Shown here in pieces: positions 18,294-29,306 of a DNA stretch of 47,489 nucleotides (positions are counted from its first letter, which is position 1; every line of letters starts with the position of its first letter). The stretch is taken from the NCBI GenBank assembly GCA_028409275.1, contig JAOOML010000002.1, positions 1 to 47,489 on the forward strand, read 5' to 3'. A program made the position numbers and the translations under genes. The DNA comes from Prochlorococcus sp. AH-716-I09 (GTDB lineage: Bacteria; Cyanobacteriota; Cyanobacteriia; PCC-6307; Cyanobiaceae). The notes below the pieces were generated by a model, which made no database searches, was not told where the DNA came from, and worked only from the letters and a program-made list of their open reading frames with translations.

Positions 18294-19880
18294 ATGAGTC
18301 AAACATCTTTAAAAAAAGAACGAGATCCTTCAATATTAATTTTAGATTTTGGATCTCAATATTCTGAATTGATTGCAAGAAGAATTAGAGAAACTAATGT
18401 TTTCTCTCTTGTAGTAAGTAATTTTATTTCAATTGAGGATATTAATAAAATTAATCCTAAAGGGATCATTTTGAGTGGAGGCCCAAATTCTGTATATGAA
18501 CTAAATGCTCCGAGATGTGATGAAAAAATTTTTAATTTAGGAATTCCTATTCTTGGCATATGCTATGGAATGCAATTAATGGTCAAAGAACTTGGAGGAT
18601 CTGTTATTTCAGCAACCAAAAAAGCTGAATATGGTAGAGCACCACTAAATATAGATCAAGAATCTGACCTCCTTTTTGATGTAGAAGATAAATCTATAAT
18701 GTGGATGAGTCATGGCGATTCAATTAATTGTTTGCCCGATGGATTTCATAAGATTGCTCATACCGAGAACACACTCCATGCAGCAATTTCAAATGATGTA
18801 AAGAAATTATTTGGCGTACAATTTCATCCTGAAGTTGTTCATTCAGAGTTTGGAATGACGGTAATTAAAAATTTTGTTTATAAAATTTCTTGTTGTGCGG
18901 CTGATTGGACCACCGAAACATATATAGACGAAACTATTCCAAGAATAAGAGAGCAAGTTGGCAACAAAAAAGTATTGCTTGCCTTGTCAGGAGGAGTTGA
19001 TTCCTCAACTCTTGCTTTTCTTCTCAATAAAGCAATTGGAAATCAGCTTACTTGTATGTTTATAGATCAAGGTTTCATGAGAAAAGGTGAACCGGAATTT
19101 TTAATGAATTTTTTTGATGAGAAATTTCATATCAAGGTTGAATACATTAATGCTAGGGAAAGGTTTATTTCCAAATTAAAAGGGATTATTGATCCAGAGC
19201 AAAAAAGGAAAATTATTGGTGAAGAATTTATTAGAGTATTTGAAGAAGAAAGTAACAGATTGGGACCTTTCCAGTACTTGGCGCAGGGTACTCTTTATCC
19301 TGATGTTATTGAAAGTGCTGGTACTAATATTGATCCCAAGACAGGTGAAAGAATAGCAGTAAAAATTAAGAGTCATCATAACGTAGGTGGACTACCAAAA
19401 GATTTACAATTTAAACTGGTTGAGCCATTAAGAAAACTTTTTAAGGATGAAGTCCGAAAACTTGGCGCTGCTTTAGGTTTGCCGGATGAAATTATAAAAA
19501 GGCATCCATTTCCAGGGCCAGGGTTAGCGATAAGAATTTTGGGAGAAGTGACCAATGAAAAACTTGACTGTTTAAGAGATGCAGACTGGATTGTGAGAGA
19601 CGAAATTAAAAAAGCGGGCCTTTATAATGATATTTGGCAAGCTTTTGCAGTATTGTTACCGGTTAAAACTGTAGGAGTTATGGGTGATAAAAGGACTTAT
19701 GCATGGCCAATAGTTTTACGTTGTGTTTCTAGTGAAGATGGTATGACCGCAGATTGGTCGAAAATTCCCTTTCAGATTTTAGAGAGAATTTCAAATAGGA
19801 TTGTAAATGAAGTAGTGTCAGTTAACAGAGTTGTTTATGATATTACAAGTAAACCTCCTGGAACTATTGAGTGGGAATAG
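18294..19880 (+). CDS. guaA: GMP synthase (glutamine-hydrolysing)
   Basis: [73 protein letters not shown]-terminus. Confidence 0.97.
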
Positions 19881-19982
19881 TCAAAGGGGTATAAAGTCAT
19901 TTATAGTCTAAAAAATTTGGTTACACGTGAAGGTAAAATCCAATCTCTATAGAGAAATCGTAGAGTAGTAGTTTTCTCTACA
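19861..19982 (+). repeat. Direct repeat copy A: guaA 3' terminus plus downstream flank
   Basis: Shares the 14-nt core ATTGAGTGGGAATA (19866-19879) with copy B, then ATAAA.ACATT/TCATTTATAGTCTA.AAAA, AGGTAAAA and TCTCTATAGAGAAATC.TAGAG...TTTCTCTA. Confidence 0.8.
19944..19979. other. Palindrome TCTCTATAGAGA plus inverted repeat AGAGAAA..TTTCTCT downstream of guaA
   Basis: 12-nt perfect palindrome 19944-19955; AGAGAAA 19951-19957 pairs with TTTCTCT 19973-19979. Conserved in copy B. Confidence 0.7.
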
Positions 19983-20045
19983 TATTGTTTTTTATTTGCA
20001 GATCTTATTCTTTGATTAATATTTCAGGTTCTTATAGTTTTTATA

Positions 20046-21752
20046 TTAATATTCAAAATAAGAGACCCATTTCTCTAGGTATTGATGACAATTCTCAAAG
20101 TATTTCTCATAGTTTTTCCATTTTTCTACAGACGACTTGTACAAAGGTTGAATAATTTGGGTATATGAAGGAGTGATTATGTTACTTCTCTCTAAGGCTG
20201 TTTTTCTGTAGTTTTTGACATTTTCATTCCATTCAACGCCTAAAAACTCTAAAATAATACCGATATGATCTTCAAATTTTTCAATGAGATTCTCATATTT
20301 TGATGTTATAAAATTAAGAGATAGATTATTTTTATATGCATCCCACGCATTCATAACTTGATCATAGAGTATTGAAGATGATTGTAGACTTATTAGGTTT
20401 GCCGTTGCTGCATTAGGTTTGAAATATTGTTGAAAGCAAGAAAGAACTGTATCGTAAGGATGCCGATGGGCAAAAATTATTCTAGCGTTAGGGAATAATA
20501 GATTAATTAAGGGTAAGGATACTGTATTTAATGGCAGTTTATCTATTACTACCTTCGTTTTAATATTCAAATATTTTTTTAAAAGTTCAAAATATTTTTT
20601 TCTAAGGATAATTAAATTATTTTCAGGAAGACTATAAAGGTTATAAAGTTCCGTATTAAACTTTTCTTGTATTAACTTTTCAATAGTCGCGATAAATGGT
20701 TTTTCTTCTATTACTTCAATTTGAGGATGACTTCTTAGGATACTATCTAGTAGGGTGGTTCCTGATCTAGGAAATCCAACTAAAAACACAATATTAGAAT
20801 CATTTATTTCATCATTAAATTTAATTGAAACTGGTTTTTTTGTTTTGATATTTTTTTTATAAGAATTAATAAAGTTTAAGTATAAATTTTTGTTATATTT
20901 CAAATACGAAGGATCATCTTGGCTCATCTTAAAGCAATGATAAGCAAGATCATAGTTTTCTATTTTATCTTCGATGAATCCTTTATAATTCCAGAAAATG
21001 ATGCCTTGATTATTTTTACTTTTCTCTATCCATTCAACAGAGATATTATCAATTAGTTTTTTTGCAGTTTTATATTCTTTATTTCTAAAGCTTAATCTAG
21101 CTTTGAAAAGTAGTAATTCATTTTTAATACAATTTACTTTGTCAAATTCGTTTAATGATTCTTTTAATTTTTTTATATTATTTAATTTTTCATAGTGGCG
21201 AAAAAGGTTGCAATATGCAACTTCTAAATCAGGATTGATTTTAATTGCTTTGCGGTACGAGATTTCTGCATCTTTCAATTTATCAAGATCAAATAATATG
21301 TTTCCTAGATTTGAAAAAGCATTAGCAAAATTAGGATTGATTTTAATTGCTTTGCGGTACGAGATTTCTCCATCTTTCAAATTACCAAGATCAAATAATA
21401 TGTTCCCCAGATTAAAATGCGCATTTGCAAAATCAGGACGAAGATTTATTGCTTTGCGAGTAAATAATTCTGCATCTTTCAAATTACCAAGATCAAATAA
21501 TATGTTCCCCAGATTGTAATGAGCACTAGCGAAATCAGGACGAAGATTTATTGCTTTGCGATACCACTGTGCTGCTTCTTCTAATTTCCCTAAAGCCTGA
21601 ATAATTGCTCCATAATTAGAAAATATTCGAGGATCATTAAAACCTTGAGTAATACAATATTTATAATATTTTGTTGCTTCTGGAATATTTCCTTGCAAAT
21701 GAAATTTAATTGCCTGATTAATTATTTCTTCTTTAGAGGGATTATTATTCAT
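20046..21752 (-). CDS. TPR-repeat sulfotransferase fusion protein (subtype 1)
   Basis: N-terminal 34-aa TPR units (AHYNLGNILFDLGNLKDAE...), C-terminal FLVGFPRSGTTLLDSILRSHP (5'-PSB loop) and IIFAHRHPYDTVLSCFQQYF. Confidence 0.9.
   Translation of the reverse strand: MNNNPSKEEIINQAIKFHLQGNIPEATKYYKYCITQGFNDPRIFSNYGAIIQALGKLEEAAQWYRKAINLRPDFASAHYNLGNILFDLGNLKDAELFTRKAINLRPDFANAHFNLGNILFDLGNLKDGEISYRKAIKINPNFANAFSNLGNILFDLDKLKDAEISYRKAIKINPDLEVAYCNLFRHYEKLNNIKKLKESLNEFDKVNCIKNELLLFKARLSFRNKEYKTAKKLIDNISVEWIEKSKNNQGIIFWNYKGFIEDKIENYDLAYHCFKMSQDDPSYLKYNKNLYLNFINSYKKNIKTKKPVSIKFNDEINDSNIVFLVGFPRSGTTLLDSILRSHPQIEVIEEKPFIATIEKLIQEKFNTELYNLYSLPENNLIILRKKYFELLKKYLNIKTKVVIDKLPLNTVSLPLINLLFPNARIIFAHRHPYDTVLSCFQQYFKPNAATANLISLQSSSILYDQVMNAWDAYKNNLSLNFITSKYENLIEKFEDHIGIILEFLGVEWNENVKNYRKTALERSNIITPSYTQIIQPLYKSSVEKWKNYEKYFENCHQYLEKWVSYFEY
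21232..21560. repeat. Tandem ~102-nt TPR-encoding repeat units in the 20046-21752 gene
   Basis: Recurring ATTGCTTTGCGGTACGAGATTTCT.CATCTTTCAA.TTA.CAAGATCAAATAATATGTT.CC.AGATT blocks at 102-nt spacing. Confidence 0.8.
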
Positions 21753-21764
21753 TAAATGCTTTTT

Positions 21765-21800
21765 TTAAGTTAAATATTTTGCTGATCCTAAATTTCTCAT
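21765..21800 (-). other. Upstream mini-ORF / relic N-terminus, MRNLGSAKYLT*
   Basis: ATG at 21800, TAA at 21765-21767, in frame with the downstream TPR gene ATG. Resembles the MKGFGEKFKYK start of the 26601-28157 gene. Confidence 0.5.
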
Positions 21801-22076
21801 TTTCAAGAAATGCTTTTTTACTTAGTGTAGATTATAGTCTTGGTTAAAAAACTCTAGAACATTATTTTGTAAGTGTAAAAAATTTTGGTTCTTACTAACC
21901 AATTCTCGACAATTAGTCCAACAAGTAAGTTCGATTTTCATAATATTAGTAATATTTCGGTTTGCCATAGGTTTTCACGCAAAATCCACCCCTGTCGTAG
22001 TGCTGGTTTAGAGCAATTGAATAATTGAGTGGGAATAAAAAGAAGGATATAAACACATTCATAGTCTAGAAAAATT

Positions 22077-22098
22077 GGTTTCACATAGGTTTCACATA
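22077..22098. repeat. Tandem 11-bp direct repeat GGTTTCACATA x2 inside copy B
   Basis: GGTTTCACATA at 22077-22087 and 22088-22098, perfect. Confidence 0.85.
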
Positions 22099-22112
22099 TA
22101 GGTAAAAATATA

Positions 22113-22148
22113 TCTCTATAGAGAAATCTTAGAGTTTTAAATTTCTCT
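22113..22148. other. Palindrome TCTCTATAGAGA plus inverted repeat AGAGAAAT..ATTTCTCT, copy B
   Basis: Palindrome 22113-22124; 8-nt stem 22120-22127 / 22141-22148. Confidence 0.7.
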
Positions 22149-22161
22149 AAACCTTAATAAA

Positions 22162-22479
22162 TTAGTTTTTTAATTTTTTAATTTTTTCTAAATTCCATTT
22201 ATCAAATATTAATTTCATTTCTCTTTCGTAGTATCTTACTTTCTTTGAGAAAGGTAGTGTTTGAATAATTATCCCAAAGGGAAATTTAAAGAAAGAAGAA
22301 ACATAAACAATATAAAACTCGATGAAGGAAGGTTTTTCAGGAAGAGGTAAATTTTTTAAATATGCCCAATCAATGCATGCTTTTAGTTGCTCATCACTAG
22401 CAGTAATATTTTTTTTACATCTCCAGTAAGAGAAAAGATAAATGCCAATAAAAATTGGTAAAGGAAGAAGTCGCAACAT
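22162..22479 (-). CDS. Hypothetical small protein with N-terminal hydrophobic segment
   Basis: 105 aa ORF, MLRLLPLPIFIGIYLFSYWRCKK...; plausible gene between TPR genes, no family recognised. Confidence 0.55.
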   Translation of the reverse strand: MLRLLPLPIFIGIYLFSYWRCKKNITASDEQLKACIDWAYLKNLPLPEKPSFIEFYIVYVSSFFKFPFGIIIQTLPFSKKVRYYEREMKLIFDKWNLEKIKKLKN

Positions 22480-22603
22480 TAAATATCAAGGATTATTTCT
22501 TCTTATTGATTCTATAAATGATAGTTTAGTTTTTATGGAAATTCTGCTTATTGGATTATTATTTTTAGGTCACATCAAAATTTGAGATCATTACCTTATG
22601 GAA

Positions 22604-22648
22604 GGAAGTGTTTATGTCCTAGGCAATTCACTAGGCTTTAGCACTTCC
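22604..22648. other. Imperfect long hairpin GGAAGTG..CCTAG....CTAGG..CACTTCC
   Basis: 7-nt outer stem, 22604-22610 with 22642-22648, and a 5-nt inner CCTAG/CTAGG stem. T-run follows on the plus strand. Confidence 0.5.
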
Positions 22649-22684
22649 ATTTGTCATTGTTTTTTTGCAAATATTATTTTTTGA

Positions 22685-24325
22685 TTAAAATTTAAGGTCT
22701 TTATATTTATCTTTTTGTGTAATTATTTCCATAGCCGGTTTAAGTAATTCTTTGTAGTTTTTCCAACCACCGCATGATTTTGAATTAATTGGGGAACGAA
22801 CTTGAACAGCGCTTGCTGTTGAAACTGAACGAGGATTCAGATGTGGTGATAAATATTTATCGTCCCACTTCCAACTGAACCAAGATGTCAAAGACTTAAT
22901 TTCTCTAGTAGGATTACAAACTAATGAGTCATAATTTAAGTCATATATTTTTGCTTTAAATTTTTTCTTATATTTAGTCATTACTATTTCTTGATCTAAA
23001 TATACTTTTGCACAATCAACTAAGGATGATGAATATTGATTTCCTTCAGCAAAATTTGCACGATAAATTGAAAGAATATTATCTAAAGGATTCCTAAAAC
23101 AATGAATGATTTTCGCATTTGGAATTAAAGAGCAGATAATGCCTGCGTATTGATAGTTATACAACCATTTGTTGGTTGTCGATTTTAATTCTTTATAATA
23201 GATATTGGCTTTTTGTAAATATATTTCAGCAAGTGTTAATTTCTGTTTAGATGTTTTCCAAATTAAAAATGATTCCTCAAGGATATTGACTTCACCTAAA
23301 TCTTTAACATTATTATTCATACTAAGAATCGATTCTAATAATGTAGAACCACTTCTAGGCATTCCTACAATAAAAATACTTTGAGGAAAGTTTTTAAGTT
23401 CTTTTTTATAGTCTATTTTTTTATTTGATTCTAAAAGTAATTTTTTAGATTCATTCAGTAAATATTCAATATTAGACGGTTTAAGATTTAGTTTCAAATT
23501 GTTCGCTAATTGTAGATATTTGGAACTGCCTTCATATTTTTTTTCTTTGTGAAGAACATTTGCTCTTGCAAAGTAAATAAAAACTTTTTCTTTCGAAGAC
23601 TTATTTTTAATGAAATCTTCAGATAATAATCTAGTTTGCCATTTTTGACTTTTATTTGATGATTGTGTTGTTGATAGGTAGGAATATGCCTTTACAAAAT
23701 TGGGATCTAGATCGATAGTTTTGCTATAGAGTGATTCTGCTTCTTTTAATTTGCCTAAACTTCTAAGCAAATTTCCAAGATTGCAGTGCGCTTCTGCAAA
23801 ATTAGGATTTAATTGAATTGCTTTTCGATATGACAATTCTGCTTCTTTTAATTGTCCTAGACTTTCAAGCAAATTTCCAAGATTGCAGTGCGCTTCTGCA
23901 AAATTAGGATTTAATTGAATTGCTTTTCGATATGACAATTCTGCTTCTTTTAATTTGCTTAGATCCGTCAATATGTTTCCAAGATTAAAGTGAGAATTGG
24001 TGTGTTTAGGATTTAATTGAATTGCTTTGCGGTAAGAAAATTCTGCTTCTATTAATTGTCCTAGATCCCTTAAAATAACCCCAAGATTAGAGTGTGCAGT
24101 TGGGTAATTAGGATTTAATTGAATTGCTTTTCGGAAACAAAATTCTGCTTCTTTTAATTTTTTAAGACTTTTTAAAAGCACACCATAATTAGAAAAAACT
24201 CTGTAGTCGTTAAAACCTTGATTTATACAATATTGATAAAATTTTACAGCTTCAGAAATATTTCCTTGGGAATGAAACTGAAATGCTTTATTGATTATTT
24301 TTTCTTTAGAGGGATTGTTATCCAT
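22685..24325 (-). CDS. TPR-repeat sulfotransferase fusion protein (subtype 2)
   Basis: TPR units AHCNLGNLLESLGQLKEAELSYRKAIQLNPNF; FIVGMPRSGSTLLESILS and IIHCFRNPLDNILSIYR sulfotransferase motifs. Confidence 0.9.
   Translation of the reverse strand: MDNNPSKEKIINKAFQFHSQGNISEAVKFYQYCINQGFNDYRVFSNYGVLLKSLKKLKEAEFCFRKAIQLNPNYPTAHSNLGVILRDLGQLIEAEFSYRKAIQLNPKHTNSHFNLGNILTDLSKLKEAELSYRKAIQLNPNFAEAHCNLGNLLESLGQLKEAELSYRKAIQLNPNFAEAHCNLGNLLRSLGKLKEAESLYSKTIDLDPNFVKAYSYLSTTQSSNKSQKWQTRLLSEDFIKNKSSKEKVFIYFARANVLHKEKKYEGSSKYLQLANNLKLNLKPSNIEYLLNESKKLLLESNKKIDYKKELKNFPQSIFIVGMPRSGSTLLESILSMNNNVKDLGEVNILEESFLIWKTSKQKLTLAEIYLQKANIYYKELKSTTNKWLYNYQYAGIICSLIPNAKIIHCFRNPLDNILSIYRANFAEGNQYSSSLVDCAKVYLDQEIVMTKYKKKFKAKIYDLNYDSLVCNPTREIKSLTSWFSWKWDDKYLSPHLNPRSVSTASAVQVRSPINSKSCGGWKNYKELLKPAMEIITQKDKYKDLKF
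23765..23955. repeat. Perfect 89-nt direct repeat at 102-nt period (duplicated TPR unit)
   Basis: 23765-23853 is identical to 23867-23955, reading AAGCAAATTTCCAAGATTGCAGTGCGCTTCTGC...TTCTTTTAATT. Confidence 0.92.
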
Positions 24326-24339
24326 AATTAATTTGTGCT

Positions 24340-24372
24340 TTAGAAATATTTTGCTATTCCAAAATTTTTCAT
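24340..24372 (-). other. Upstream mini-ORF / relic N-terminus, MKNFGIAKYF*
   Basis: ATG at 24372, TAA at 24340-24342, in a different frame from the downstream TPR gene. Homologous to the 21765-21800 mini-ORF. Confidence 0.5.
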
Positions 24373-24610
24373 TCTCTACAAATAGTGATAAACATAATTT
24401 AATTATAATCTTTTATTAAAATTAACTTTTGTATTGATAATTTTCAAATACAATTTAAAGACATTTCTTATACAGGTGAAAGTGATCGCATATATAAAGT
24501 CTTTTATTTTCTCAATCCTTTCCAGTTTGTATTGTTTATAGAGTTGAGTGAAAATAAAAAATATTTTTCTAGAAGAAGTAAAACAATAAAAAAAAGTCAA
24601 AAAATTAGAT

Positions 24611-24638
24611 GGTTTTAGTTAGATTATTTGTTAAAACC
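24611..24638 (-). terminator. Probable intrinsic terminator for the 24705-26294 gene
   Basis: Minus strand GGTTTTAA...CTAAAACC hairpin followed by ATCTAATTTTTTGACTTTTTTTT. Confidence 0.6.
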
Positions 24639-24704
24639 AAAACCGATATATTGCTTTTAAAGTGATGGGATTTTTTTTCAGAGCTTGCCTGTTTTGTATG
24701 TTTT

Positions 24705-26294
24705 TTAGGAGATTATGTCTTGATATTTTTCCGTTTGAGTCAGGATTTCAATAGCAGGTTTAAGCATCTCTTTATAGTTCTTCCACCCTCCAATTGATTT
24801 TGCATTGATTGGGGAACGGACTTGGACTTTGCTTGCTGTGAATACTGAGCGTGGATTTAGATGTGGTGATAAATATTTATCGTCCCACTTCCAACCTAAC
24901 CAAGATGTCAAAGACTTAATTTCTCTAGTAGGATTACAAACTAATAAGTCATAATTTAAATCATATATTTTGTCTCTAAATCTTTTCTTATATTCAGTCA
25001 TTACTTCATCCTGATTTAGATAAACTCTTGAACAATCAATTAAGGAGGAGGAATACTCATTTCCATGCGCAAAATTAGTGCGATAAATTGAAAGAATATT
25101 ATCTAGAGGATTTCTAAAACAATGAATTATTTTGGCATTTGGAATTTGAGTAGAAATAATACCTGTAAATGAATAATTATATAAGTTTTTATTAGTTGTT
25201 TTATTTGTTTGTTTGCTATGAATGTTAATTTTTTCCCAATACCTTTCAGCAAGATTTAAACCTTGGTTACTTTTTTTACTATCTTTAAATGATTCCTCTA
25301 AGATCTCACTCTCTCCTAAATCATATACATCAGAATTAACGCTGAGAATTGATTCTAATAATGTAGAACCACTTCTTGGCATTCCTACAATGAAGATACT
25401 TTCTTGTGCTTTTGTATATCTTTTTTGATTTATTTCTTGTTTAATAGTTTCAATATATAATGTTTTAGATTTGTTGATAAGAACGTCAGAATTTGATGGA
25501 TGAATAATAAGATTTAATTGATTTCCTAACTTAATAAATTTAGAACTGTCTTCGTAATTTTTTTCTTTGTGAAGAATATTTGCTCTTGCAAAGTGAATAT
25601 CAATTTGATCCTCTTTTGATTTTTGATTCAAGATGCTGTTAGAAAATAGTTGTTTTTTCCATATCTTATGTTCATCAGAATTTTTAAATAATGATAGTGC
25701 ATAGTATGCTTTTATGTAATTAGGATTGATGTCAATTACTTTGCAATATGATGATTCTGATTCTTCTAATTTTCCAAGACTAGAAAGTATATTACCAAGA
25801 TTATAATGAGCTTCTGCGTAATCAGGTTTGATGTTAATAGCTTTGCGATATGATAATTCTGATTCCTCTAATTTCCCTAGATCTTTCAAAACTATTGCCA
25901 GATTGTAATGCGCAGTTGAATCTTTTGGATTAAGTTCAATTGCTTTTCTTATAAAAAATTCTGCATCTTTAATTTTTCTTTGATTTTTTAAAATCCCTCC
26001 CAGATTGTAATGTGCATTTGAATCTTTTGGATTCAGTTTAATTGCTTTTCTTATAAAAAATTCTGCATCTTTTAACTTCCCAGAATTGATTAGAATTACT
26101 CCATAATTTGAAAAAATAGTACTATTCTGACAGCCTTTATCTATTAATAATTTATAAAGCTGACTTGCTTGAAAAATTTTCCCTTCATAGTGAAAATTAA
26201 TTGCTTTTTTAAGAATTTCATTCTCATCATATTTTTGTCGTAAGTGAGATATGTTTCTTTTCTTTGATTTGTTAGTTTCCCCAAAACCCGACAT
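24705..26294 (-). CDS. TPR-repeat sulfotransferase fusion protein (subtype 2 paralogue)
   Basis: MSGFGETNKSKKR leader, TPR units, FIVGMPRSGSTLLESILSVNS, IIHCFRNPLDNILSIYRTNF; C-terminus closely matches the 22685-24325 product. Confidence 0.9.
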   Translation of the reverse strand: MSGFGETNKSKKRNISHLRQKYDENEILKKAINFHYEGKIFQASQLYKLLIDKGCQNSTIFSNYGVILINSGKLKDAEFFIRKAIKLNPKDSNAHYNLGGILKNQRKIKDAEFFIRKAIELNPKDSTAHYNLAIVLKDLGKLEESELSYRKAINIKPDYAEAHYNLGNILSSLGKLEESESSYCKVIDINPNYIKAYYALSLFKNSDEHKIWKKQLFSNSILNQKSKEDQIDIHFARANILHKEKNYEDSSKFIKLGNQLNLIIHPSNSDVLINKSKTLYIETIKQEINQKRYTKAQESIFIVGMPRSGSTLLESILSVNSDVYDLGESEILEESFKDSKKSNQGLNLAERYWEKINIHSKQTNKTTNKNLYNYSFTGIISTQIPNAKIIHCFRNPLDNILSIYRTNFAHGNEYSSSLIDCSRVYLNQDEVMTEYKKRFRDKIYDLNYDLLVCNPTREIKSLTSWLGWKWDDKYLSPHLNPRSVFTASKVQVRSPINAKSIGGWKNYKEMLKPAIEILTQTEKYQDIIS

Positions 26295-26600
26295 AAAAAT
26301 TTTTTTATATTTATTATATCTTTTCTTTTGTTTTCACTAAAAAGTATAAAGTATCTAAACTTCTTTTTAAAAGGAAAGAATTCTTCACTACATATATAAA
26401 TAATTCTTAGGAAACCAAAAGGATTAAATTAACTAAGTTAGTATCTATTCTTTCTATAAAGGTCAGTTGAGGTTAATCCTTTTTCGAAAATCCGAACATT
26501 TATAAATATATGGACCAAGAACTCAAGAATTATATTAGGGTTCTTATTTGTTAATTAAGAGATCTAATTACTACTTTTTAAAGACATTTTTGATTAGGGC

Positions 26601-28157
26601 TCAACTGTGTTTATTCGGTGTTTGCTTAGAACAAAAGTCCCTACTGGAAAATTTTAAACTTTTAGGAATATTTATTTGCTCATTAGTTATTTTTTTTACA
26701 CTTTCGTCTCCTATCTTCTGAGCATATGAGATCCAGTTTCTTATGATAAGGAAGTCATTTAAACTAAATCCCTGAATACTTTCGTTTGATTCCCCCCAAT
26801 TTTTGTTACCTTCATCTATTTCTTTTTCTATATTTTTCCATTTCTTGTTATATTCCATCGGTTGCTTTCCATTTATATTTATCTCCTTATATTTAGGGAA
26901 TTCTAGCGCATATTCAGAGCAACCTCTCTTTATTTTGGATGATAAATTAACTCTAATATTATTTTGAAGGTGAATGTTTAATTTTTTTGAAATATCTAAT
27001 GCTTCAGGTAGGTTTGCGCAATATATCAATCCTTTATAAAATCCTGAGATATTTTCTCTTATTTCGACCATACATTTTCTTGTATTGGAATTTTCAAGTT
27101 CTAGAGTATTGAAAACTAAAAATAGTTTGATTAATTCAACGATTGAATCTACTTCAACTTGAACTTTATAGCATTCAAAACAAAATTCAGGGATTATTTT
27201 TTTTTGATTAAAAATTAGCTTATGCCTGTTGCAATTTAAATTTATTTCATTTCTTTTATAGATTTGTGATAAAGAAGTTTCTAGATCTAAATTATATTTT
27301 CTATAGATCTCAAATCCATCTTTGTAAACTTGTATTGCTTCTTTGTCAGTGATAATAGAGTTATCTTGCTTGCGAAGACTTAGATTTCTAAATTCTTCAT
27401 TTAATATATATATTTGATTGGAAAATTGGATTTTCGGTTTGTATACAGTTAGTAAACTGATTAAATTACTCTTAATAGATTTATTTTCAGGATCTAGTTC
27501 AATAGCTTTGTTAATAGAGACATCTGCATCTTGTAACTTGCCAAGATCGCTTAATATGCTTCCCAGATTGGAATGTAACTCTGCGTAATTAGGTTTAATT
27601 TCAATTGCTCTGCGGTATGAAATTTCTGCTTCTTGCAACTTCCCAAGATCTTTTAATATGCTTCCCAGATTAGAATGTGCTTCTGCGTAATTAGGTTTAA
27701 TTTTAATTGCTCTGCGGTATGAAATTTCTGCTTCTTGCAACTTGCTAATATCTCTCAATATGTTCCCAAGATTGTAATATGCATCTGCGAAATCGGGTTT
27801 GATTTCAATAGCTTTTTTGAGAGATAATTCTGCTTCTTTTAATTTGCCTAGACTGCTTAATATACTTCCCAGATTGGAATGTGCCTCAGCGAAATCAGGT
27901 TTGATTTCCAGAGCTTTGCGAGTAAATAATTCTGCTTCTTTTAATTTACCAACTCTTTGTAAAATTCCTGCATAATTCGCAAAAACTCTGTGATCATTAA
28001 TTCCCTGATTTATACAATACTGATAACATTTTGCTGCTTCTCTAATATTTCCTTTTAGATGAAAATGAATTGCTTGATTAATTATTTGCTCTTGAGAAGA
28101 TATGTTCTTCGCAGTTTTTTGCTTTTTATATTTAAACTTCTCTCCAAAACCTTTCAT
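26601..28157 (-). CDS. TPR-repeat protein with distinct Cys/His-rich C-terminal domain (not sulfotransferase)
   Basis: MKGFGEKFKYKKQK leader and TPR units (AEAHSNLGSILKDLGKLQEAEISYRRAIEIKPNY), then CNRH...CFECYKVQVEV...RGCSEYALEFPKY; no PRSGTT motif. Confidence 0.85.
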   Translation of the reverse strand: MKGFGEKFKYKKQKTAKNISSQEQIINQAIHFHLKGNIREAAKCYQYCINQGINDHRVFANYAGILQRVGKLKEAELFTRKALEIKPDFAEAHSNLGSILSSLGKLKEAELSLKKAIEIKPDFADAYYNLGNILRDISKLQEAEISYRRAIKIKPNYAEAHSNLGSILKDLGKLQEAEISYRRAIEIKPNYAELHSNLGSILSDLGKLQDADVSINKAIELDPENKSIKSNLISLLTVYKPKIQFSNQIYILNEEFRNLSLRKQDNSIITDKEAIQVYKDGFEIYRKYNLDLETSLSQIYKRNEINLNCNRHKLIFNQKKIIPEFCFECYKVQVEVDSIVELIKLFLVFNTLELENSNTRKCMVEIRENISGFYKGLIYCANLPEALDISKKLNIHLQNNIRVNLSSKIKRGCSEYALEFPKYKEININGKQPMEYNKKWKNIEKEIDEGNKNWGESNESIQGFSLNDFLIIRNWISYAQKIGDESVKKITNEQINIPKSLKFSSRDFCSKQTPNKHS

Positions 28158-28281: not shown

Positions 28282-28521
28282 ATGCAGTTTTATTTTCTAG
28301 AGTTAGGTGATTTAGGAAATTTAAATATATCAAGTCTTTATTTAATAAATGTTCAAAAAAAAATTAATGAACTTATTACTCTAAAAATATGCTCTAATTA
28401 CTTACTTTTATTATTTAGTTTTCATAATTGTTTTCATGAGGGGGAATATTCAATATTAAAATTACAAAAATTTTGCCACTACTTTGTTCTTTTTTCTGAA
28501 TTTGCGGTAGCATTCAAATGA
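28282..28521 (+). CDS. Hypothetical small ORF
   Basis: 79 aa plus-strand ORF in an AT-rich gap at the island edge. No family recognised. Confidence 0.3.
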   Translation: MQFYFLELGDLGNLNISSLYLINVQKKINELITLKICSNYLLLLFSFHNCFHEGEYSILKLQKFCHYFVLFSEFAVAFK

Positions 28522-28595
28522 AGCAAATTAACAAATTTTTAAAATTTAAAGTTTTAATTCATATAAAAAAAATTCTAAATCAAATTTAAAACGCA

Positions 28596-29306
28596 ATGAG
28601 CGAGATTATTAAATTAAGTAGATCTACTGTCGAGAAATACCTTAGTTGTCCAAGATGTTGTGTACTTGATAAAAAATATAAAATAAAACCACCATCATTA
28701 CCATTTACTCTAAATATAGCTGTAGACAGTTTATGTAAAAATGAATTTGATCACTATAGAAGGATTCAGGAGCCACATCCTTTGTTAATTGAAAATGGTA
28801 TTGAAGCTGTTCCTTTTCAACACAAAGATTTAGAACGATGGAGAAGTAATTTTCAAGGTATTAGATATAAGTCAACTGAACATAATTATGATTTTGGTGG
28901 AGCTGTGGATGATATTTGGCAGAAAAAAAATGGAGAACTTATAATTATTGATGTTAAAGCAACATCAAGAAATAAGTTTGATTGGTTCGAGACTTTTAAT
29001 AAATATGATTACGCAAAAGCTTACAAGAGACAATTAGAAATGTATCAGTGGTTATTTCAAAAAAACGGTTTTGAAGTTTCCAAAGAAGCTTATCTTTTAT
29101 ATTTTAATGGAAAGAAAAATGAAGAGGTTTTTAATAATCAATTAAATTTTGATGCTCATTTAATTAGATTGGATTGTTCTACATCTTGGGTAGAAAATAA
29201 GATAATTGATACAGTCAATTTATTACGTTCGGATATTTTTCCTAAACCTTCTCTTAATTGTGAGTACTGTAATTATTTAAAAAAGCGTTGGCAGCTAATT
29301 ACTTAA
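28596..29306 (+). CDS. PD-(D/E)XK nuclease family protein (Cas4/RecB-like)
   Basis: STVEKYLSCPRCC, GGAVDDIWQKKNGELIIIDVKATS (D..DxK core), KRQLEMYQWLF (motif QxxxY), C-terminal CEYCNYL. Confidence 0.83.
   Translation: MSEIIKLSRSTVEKYLSCPRCCVLDKKYKIKPPSLPFTLNIAVDSLCKNEFDHYRRIQEPHPLLIENGIEAVPFQHKDLERWRSNFQGIRYKSTEHNYDFGGAVDDIWQKKNGELIIIDVKATSRNKFDWFETFNKYDYAKAYKRQLEMYQWLFQKNGFEVSKEAYLLYFNGKKNEEVFNNQLNFDAHLIRLDCSTSWVENKIIDTVNLLRSDIFPKPSLNCEYCNYLKKRWQLIT

Follow-up and report, generated by a model that had tools for sequence, protein, structure and literature searches.

We analyzed four genes, A to D, that encode tetratricopeptide repeat (TPR) proteins and lie beyond the 3' end of guaA in a 47,489-nt stretch of DNA, hereafter the window, from a 784-kb, 56% complete genome of Prochlorococcus, a hugely abundant ocean photosynthesizer with a streamlined genome. 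The window was compared with 151 genomes of the same genus and with a second genus, likewise Prochlorococcus, whose genomes are 1.7–2.0 Mb. Genes A to D belong to a large modular family that is the characteristic cargo of tandem guaA cassettes in Prochlorococcus. In the literature searched, which excluded most subscription journals, we found no earlier description of guaA-cassette arrays with modular TPR enzyme cargo in Prochlorococcus, nor any description of TPR-sulfotransferases or guaA islands in this organism.

An open reading frame check found all four genes open on the minus strand, with the coordinates given to them in a preliminary description of the sequence. TPR_1 matched A, B, C, and D (Pfam, E 1e-30 to 1e-53), and the related N-terminal module that the preliminary description reported is common to all four, with pairwise protein identity of 41–62%. 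This N-module is a degenerate first TPR; its profile scored E 7e-35 to 3e-42 in the window's own genome, and within the 56%-complete sequence searched it was restricted to the guaA locus. The division of the C-terminal tails into one PRSGTT type, two PRSGSTLLES types, and one that is not a sulfotransferase was likewise confirmed. Gene A (20046..21752, minus strand) joins TPRs to a tail resembling protein-tyrosine sulfotransferases (TPSTs), with the motif PRSGTTLLD; the tails of gene B (22685..24325, minus strand) and gene C (24705..26294, minus strand) carry PRSGSTLLES. Sulfotransfer_3 (PF13469) was identified in A, B, and C at 108, 88, and 96 bits (E 8.9e-31, 1.4e-24, and 3.5e-27, respectively), compared with a curated cut-off of 27 bits. 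Gene D (26601..28157, minus strand) has no Sulfotransfer_3 domain; its undescribed tail contains the invariant motifs C-x2-H and C-x2-C and has no Pfam match.

A leader of the form M[KST]GFG[EDN]..K.KK precedes the N-module in gene C (MSGFGE), in gene D (MKGFGE), and in most relatives (59/69 proteins of the same genus, by this simple pattern), and it is absent from A and B. An in-frame TAA between a leader-like start and the ATG of gene A could indicate a broken gene; however, we did not count A as broken because B and the genes in genomes G054, G072, and G101 start equally short. Structure prediction, which the preliminary description proposed for the tails, was successful for part of gene C: AlphaFold predicted its TPR superhelix with confidence (predicted local distance difference test, pLDDT, ~90), its leader as disordered, and its tail only weakly, and the model of the D tail was poor (pLDDT 57). 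The best fold matches to the gene C model were designed TPRs and the TPR domains of O-GlcNAc transferase (OGT) and SPINDLY.

Genes A to D sit in an island bounded on the left by guaA (GMP synthase; 18294..19880, plus strand; NCBIfam NF000848, E 3e-239), whose last bases are the integration site, and on the right by a gene encoding a conserved PD-(D/E)XK/Cas4-like protein (28596..29306, plus strand; PF12705, E 6e-10). Both flanks were on one contig in 99 of the 151 genus genomes. The gap between them is 8,718 bp in the window, 47–78 bp in 29/99 relatives (empty sites), and up to 15,539 bp in the others. We read 54 islands of ~1 kb or larger, including that of the window; an N-module gene is present in 23 of them, and the A-B-C-D gene set is absent from all the other islands read. 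The locus is thus variable rather than core, in agreement with the preliminary description.

Repeated guaA 3' ends and attachment modules

The guaA 3' end, ATTGAGTGGGAATA, occurs in exactly two copies in the window, at 19866 and 22024, compared with 0.02 exact matches expected in the shuffled window; it includes GAGTGGGA, the published core of guaA-integrating islands (PMC9376610). The first copy, at the end of guaA itself (ATTGAGTGGGAATAG, which includes GAGTGGGA; 19866..19880, plus strand), matches ATTGAGTGGGAATA exactly and starts cassette 1. It is followed by attachment module 1 (19917..19987, plus strand; nhmmer E 7.5e-17), which consists of an arm-type repeat and the hairpin TCTCTATAGAGAAATC...TTTCTCTA. 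The second copy (ATTGAGTGGGAATAA; 22024..22038, plus strand), also an exact match, starts cassette 2 and is followed by attachment module 2 (22075..22155, plus strand; nhmmer E 3.9e-18), with tandem GGTTTCACATA repeats and a hairpin. Both copies therefore precede 11-bp repeats and a hairpin. The nhmmer profile, which was built from the islands of relatives with the window's own two modules among the inputs, matched the window at 19917-19987 and 22075-22155 and nowhere else, and the module was not present in the empty guaA sites read.

Because a guaA-end copy with its attachment module (22024-22155) stands between A and the other genes, gene A is the cargo of one insertion, whereas the gene for a 105-aa protein, B, C, and D arrived in at least one more; the preliminary description, in which the four genes formed a single cassette, needs correction on this point. 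The 105-aa protein gene (22162..22479, minus strand) lies between A and B, and its function is unassigned, with no Pfam match. It is present in 9 islands, in several cases immediately after an attachment module; its product appears membrane-like and may be part of one cassette type. Between B and C, a possible decayed core (GTTGAGTGAAAATAA; 24543..24557, plus strand) has 4 mismatches and is alone at chance level, albeit placed before the 3' end of a gene, as expected for a core; it may mark a third insertion but is not significant by itself. The probable right end of the array (28511..28539, plus strand) is a degenerate core followed by sequence that is found after guaA in empty genomes.

The same anatomy recurs in relatives. 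In the islands of relatives, ATTGAGTGGGAGTAA (≤2 mismatches) recurs internally 72 times in the orientation of guaA (some right-end copies included) and once reversed, compared with 0–1 in shuffles, and single islands hold up to six guaA-end sites, oriented as guaA. Where a module is present, it mostly lies 77–100 or 139–160 bp after a core. Modules are made up of tandem 11-bp repeats (of the GGTTTCACATA, GGTTTCCCTCA, GGTTACACGTG, GGTTTTACGTG, and GTTTGTCACGG types) and the hairpin TCTCTATAGAGAAATCGTAGAG..AAATTTCTCTACAC; the tandem repeats match at 7–8 of 8 positions in 41/56 modules versus ~2% in shuffles. Some cores and modules are degenerate.

Nearly all N-module genes in the islands (30/32) point against guaA, and the remaining island genes are mixed in orientation (84 in one direction, 93 in the other). 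The islands also carry genes for type IIG restriction enzymes, DNA methylases, an acyltransferase with an SGNH domain, resolvases, and phage-type integrases. In islands L058, L061, L065, L069, and L071 (genomes G041, G106, G039, G137, and G124), mreB-like genes occur together with EPSP synthase (aroA)-like genes. In many genomes, a second paralogue of the right-flank PD-(D/E)XK/Cas4-like protein, 35–38% identical, is found elsewhere.

One front half, many tails

The N-module is present in 64 of the 151 genus genomes, and the family joins a common leader and first TPR to more than 10 tail types. In the window's genus, these tails comprise two sulfotransferase types, glycosyltransferases (GT41, GT9-like, and GT2-like), several 2-oxoglutarate (2OG)-Fe(II) oxygenase-like types, an S-adenosylmethionine methyltransferase, an SGNH-like type, and the D tail, and there are also TPR-only proteins; the GT9-like, SGNH, and two oxygenase assignments are motif-based and below Pfam cut-offs. 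The idea of sulfation in the preliminary description needs to be widened, as sulfation is only one of more than 10 chemistries on the same N-terminal half.

Most carrier genomes of the second genus have 12 to 20 or more N-module copies, with a different leader (..VKTFPVPFALGEIKENI..) and with additional tails that we assigned by eye as TylF-like, FkbM-like, and hydrolase-like. One protein, G308 796599, combines both leader types. In four second-genus genomes, guaA directly precedes an array of TPR genes (the TPR genes were mapped in three); these arrays reach pbp2, with cores ahead of many genes, and span 51 kb in G234 and 47 kb in G308. Two second-genus matches to the D tail (L227 and L232) run through a stop codon, and for this reason some array genes may be decaying. 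A survey of 292 cyanobacterial genomes gave strong matches only within the same family and a single weak one elsewhere. Proteins of 650–757 aa with an MKGFG leader and A-type sulfotransferase tails recur away from guaA (L116, L124, L132, and similar loci), and in several genomes a second sulfotransferase lies ~5 kb from such a locus.

Tail exchange, which the preliminary description proposed as the source of diversity, is seen at the DNA level in relatives. In G234, a gene with a sulfotransferase tail lies next to one with a D tail, and the two are 98.4% identical at the DNA level over 1,063 bp covering the leader and TPRs; the shared stretch starts 47 bp before the start codon and stops shortly before the tail. 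Similarly, a GT9-like and an FkbM-like gene share 97.6% identity over 923 bp, and a 2OG and an SGNH-like gene share 91% identity over 864 bp. The nearest neighbor is identical for N-module and tail in 13/107 proteins. No recent tail exchange is visible among the window's own four genes. The D tail of the window mostly has its closer counterparts in the second genus (up to 74%, compared with 58–59% within its own genus), and despite this, gene D carries the leader of its own genus.

Predicted activity of the proteins and probable mobility of the cassettes

Among solved structures, the nearest to gene A is protein-tyrosine sulfotransferase 1 (E 1.9e-8), and the matches for A and C were protein-tyrosine sulfotransferases 1 and 2 (E 1e-8 to 3e-9), albeit with remote similarity. 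The P-loop RSG[ST]T and the TPST-aligned residues (R, E, K, R, S, S) are invariant in 34/34 sulfotransferases of the family, confirming that the active sites are intact; we take the aligned Glu, Lys, Arg, and Ser to have the catalytic roles that they have in TPSTs. The window's own genome encodes an adenosine 5'-phosphosulfate kinase, indicating that the sulfate donor 3'-phosphoadenosine 5'-phosphosulfate (PAPS) can be made. Inspected by eye, the A, B, and C sequences contain no signal or membrane segment. A, B, and C are likely intracellular PAPS-dependent sulfotransferases that decorate a surface or secreted molecule and have spread on guaA cassettes.

For the D tail, we found no known enzyme family, PDB sequence, or significant fold match. 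Its invariant residues, C77-x2-H80...C94-x2-C97, suggest a zinc site, and the tail is probably a zinc-binding domain. At several places read (G025, G099, G234, and some named contigs), the D tail adjoins a TPR-sulfotransferase.

The cargo proteins would consist of a disordered leader, the degenerate first TPR, an OGT-like TPR superhelix, and an exchangeable catalytic domain at the end. A mix of chemistries on one TPR dock is expected for the decoration of a glycan or glycoprotein. The leader and TPRs most likely bind a shared acceptor or complex, which each tail would decorate with sulfate, sugar, hydroxyl, or methyl groups, such that strains would differ in a surface or secreted molecule. It is also conceivable, although somewhat unlikely in our judgment, that the enzymes act in the manner of OGT on intracellular proteins through tyrosine sulfation, O-glycosylation, or hydroxylation. 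The similarity of the superhelix to OGT and SPINDLY, the GT41 tails of some family members, the TPSTs as nearest solved sulfotransferases, and the lack of an evident signal peptide by eye would all fit such targets. The GT9-like, GT2-like, SGNH, and FkbM tails, however, point to glycan decoration, and an outward-facing product would fit a site that is hypervariable and also houses restriction enzymes and an O-acyltransferase. Such a decorated product would be located at the cell surface, where phage or grazers may select among its variants.

We consider it probable that cassettes carrying this modular Prochlorococcus enzyme family have integrated site-specifically, one behind another, at the guaA 3' end to form a tandem array. 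Each cassette would start with a guaA 3'-end copy and an arm-repeat/hairpin module and then contain one to a few genes, and a tyrosine recombinase encoded by a few elements at the guaA site probably moves the other cassettes in trans. Most islands have no integrase; PF00589 integrases are found at the guaA site in three genus genomes (G009, G027, and G096; one recognized by a domain test, the others by similarity) and in one second-genus array (G234). Several islands that integrate at guaA have been described, including ICERspD18B (PMC7775301) and those of Song et al. 2012, as cited in PMC7775301. It is known from published work that the integrase of an island can move a unit that has none of its own (PMC9376610, PMC7775301): the integrase of GIsul2 also moves CR2-sul2, a unit that lacks an integrase and is bounded by a third core copy (PMC9376610). 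By analogy with GIsul2, and given the PF00589 integrases at the same site, movement of integrase-less cassettes in trans is likely.

Several observations weigh against this interpretation. There is no integrase among the genes of the window, although no search for one was made in the rest of the 56%-complete genome, and no transfer vehicle was found among the viral contigs searched. The right-end core of the window is degenerate, and there is no core between C and D. N-module and tail are partly coupled, as the nearest N-module neighbor has the same tail class in 39/111 cases (shuffled mean 15). Finally, many of the N-module genes are found at sites other than guaA, in some cases near tRNAs, and guaA cassettes are therefore not the sole vehicle. 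tRNA genes are the usual island sites in Prochlorococcus, and the N-module genes away from guaA are often near those for Ala-GGC, Ser-GCT, Lys, Phe, and Ser-CGA (L103, L104, L106, L110, L200, L210, L213, L215, L216, and L217). A phage origin was rejected: the N-module, the D tail, the C sulfotransferase tail, and the exact attachment-site patterns were all unmatched in viral contigs, the D tail had no match in phage records, and one weak match of the B tail (22% identity) to a fragment of phage AS-1 was set aside.

A static island that grows by homologous recombination through its flanking core genes and TPR repeats, with the guaA-end copies as relics of old insertions that have lost their role, is an unlikely explanation. 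It would account for the missing integrase in most islands and for the degeneration of some cores and modules; in addition, TPR repeats provide homology for exchange, and the shared fronts stop near the tail boundary. However, almost all cores face one way and, amid otherwise unrelated cargo, mostly keep set distances from a conserved module, the tandem repeats are kept near-perfect, and the integrases at the guaA site appear intact. That A to D are a single sulfation cassette, which entered and works together, is improbable: the genes are adjacent on one strand, three of four share a chemistry, and D tails neighbor TPR-sulfotransferases elsewhere, but the guaA-end copy and its module part A from B-C-D, the gaps between neighboring genes are 306–932 bp, the set recurs in no other island read, and the N-module of B is closer to those of A and D although its tail is closest to that of C (64%).

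Building on the cassette array, we tentatively propose, as a possibility, that guaA serves as an integron-like platform where small leader-TPR-tail cassettes are gathered and exchanged by a tyrosine recombinase acting in trans, so that a shared surface or secreted acceptor would be modified combinatorially and in a strain-specific way. Some Prochlorococcus lineages keep ~50 kb of guaA arrays despite a streamlined genome, and these arrays could account for a large, poorly annotated share of strain-to-strain variation. Site-specific cassettes together with tail exchange could be a concrete route of diversification, and surface variation against phage and grazers could become testable at one defined locus, guaA.

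Comparison with known systems

The tycheposons of Prochlorococcus are integrative elements that carry cargo and have tyrosine recombinases (PMC10872708), and the guaA cassettes resemble them in these respects; however, tycheposons enter tRNA genes, whereas the site in the window is guaA and the window contains no tRNA genes. With the guaA-integrating islands GIsul2 and ICERspD18B, the cassettes share insertion at the guaA 3' end and direct repeats with GAGTGGGA, and the third core copy of GIsul2, which bounds an integrase-less unit moved by the integrase, offers a further parallel. Unlike these islands, Prochlorococcus has up to six copies per island, arrays of 47–51 kb, and cassettes of one to a few genes that mostly lack an integrase and have a conserved arm-repeat/hairpin module, and in some lineages one modular enzyme family dominates the cargo.

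The sulfotransferases have PF13469, the P-loop RSG[ST]T, and the TPST-aligned Glu, Lys, Arg, and Ser in common with PF13469 TPR-sulfotransferases and TPSTs, but the Prochlorococcus family differs in its MKGFG or TFPVPFALGEIKENI leader, in the more than 10 other tails on the same front, and, in A, B, and C, in the lack (by eye) of a signal or membrane segment. As in OGT and SPINDLY, a TPR superhelix precedes a transferase domain, which is a GT41 tail in some family members; in contrast, the window's tails are sulfotransferases or unassigned, the TPR arrays are short, and there is a leader.

Finally, the locus resembles integrons in its array of small cassettes, in its repeated sites in one orientation, and in that most cargo lacks a recombinase. 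It differs, as far as can be judged without a dedicated integron search, in that each repeated site reproduces the guaA 3' end and has tandem arm repeats, that the integrases observed belong to PF00589 and are encoded at guaA by a few elements, and that the cargo lies in both orientations.

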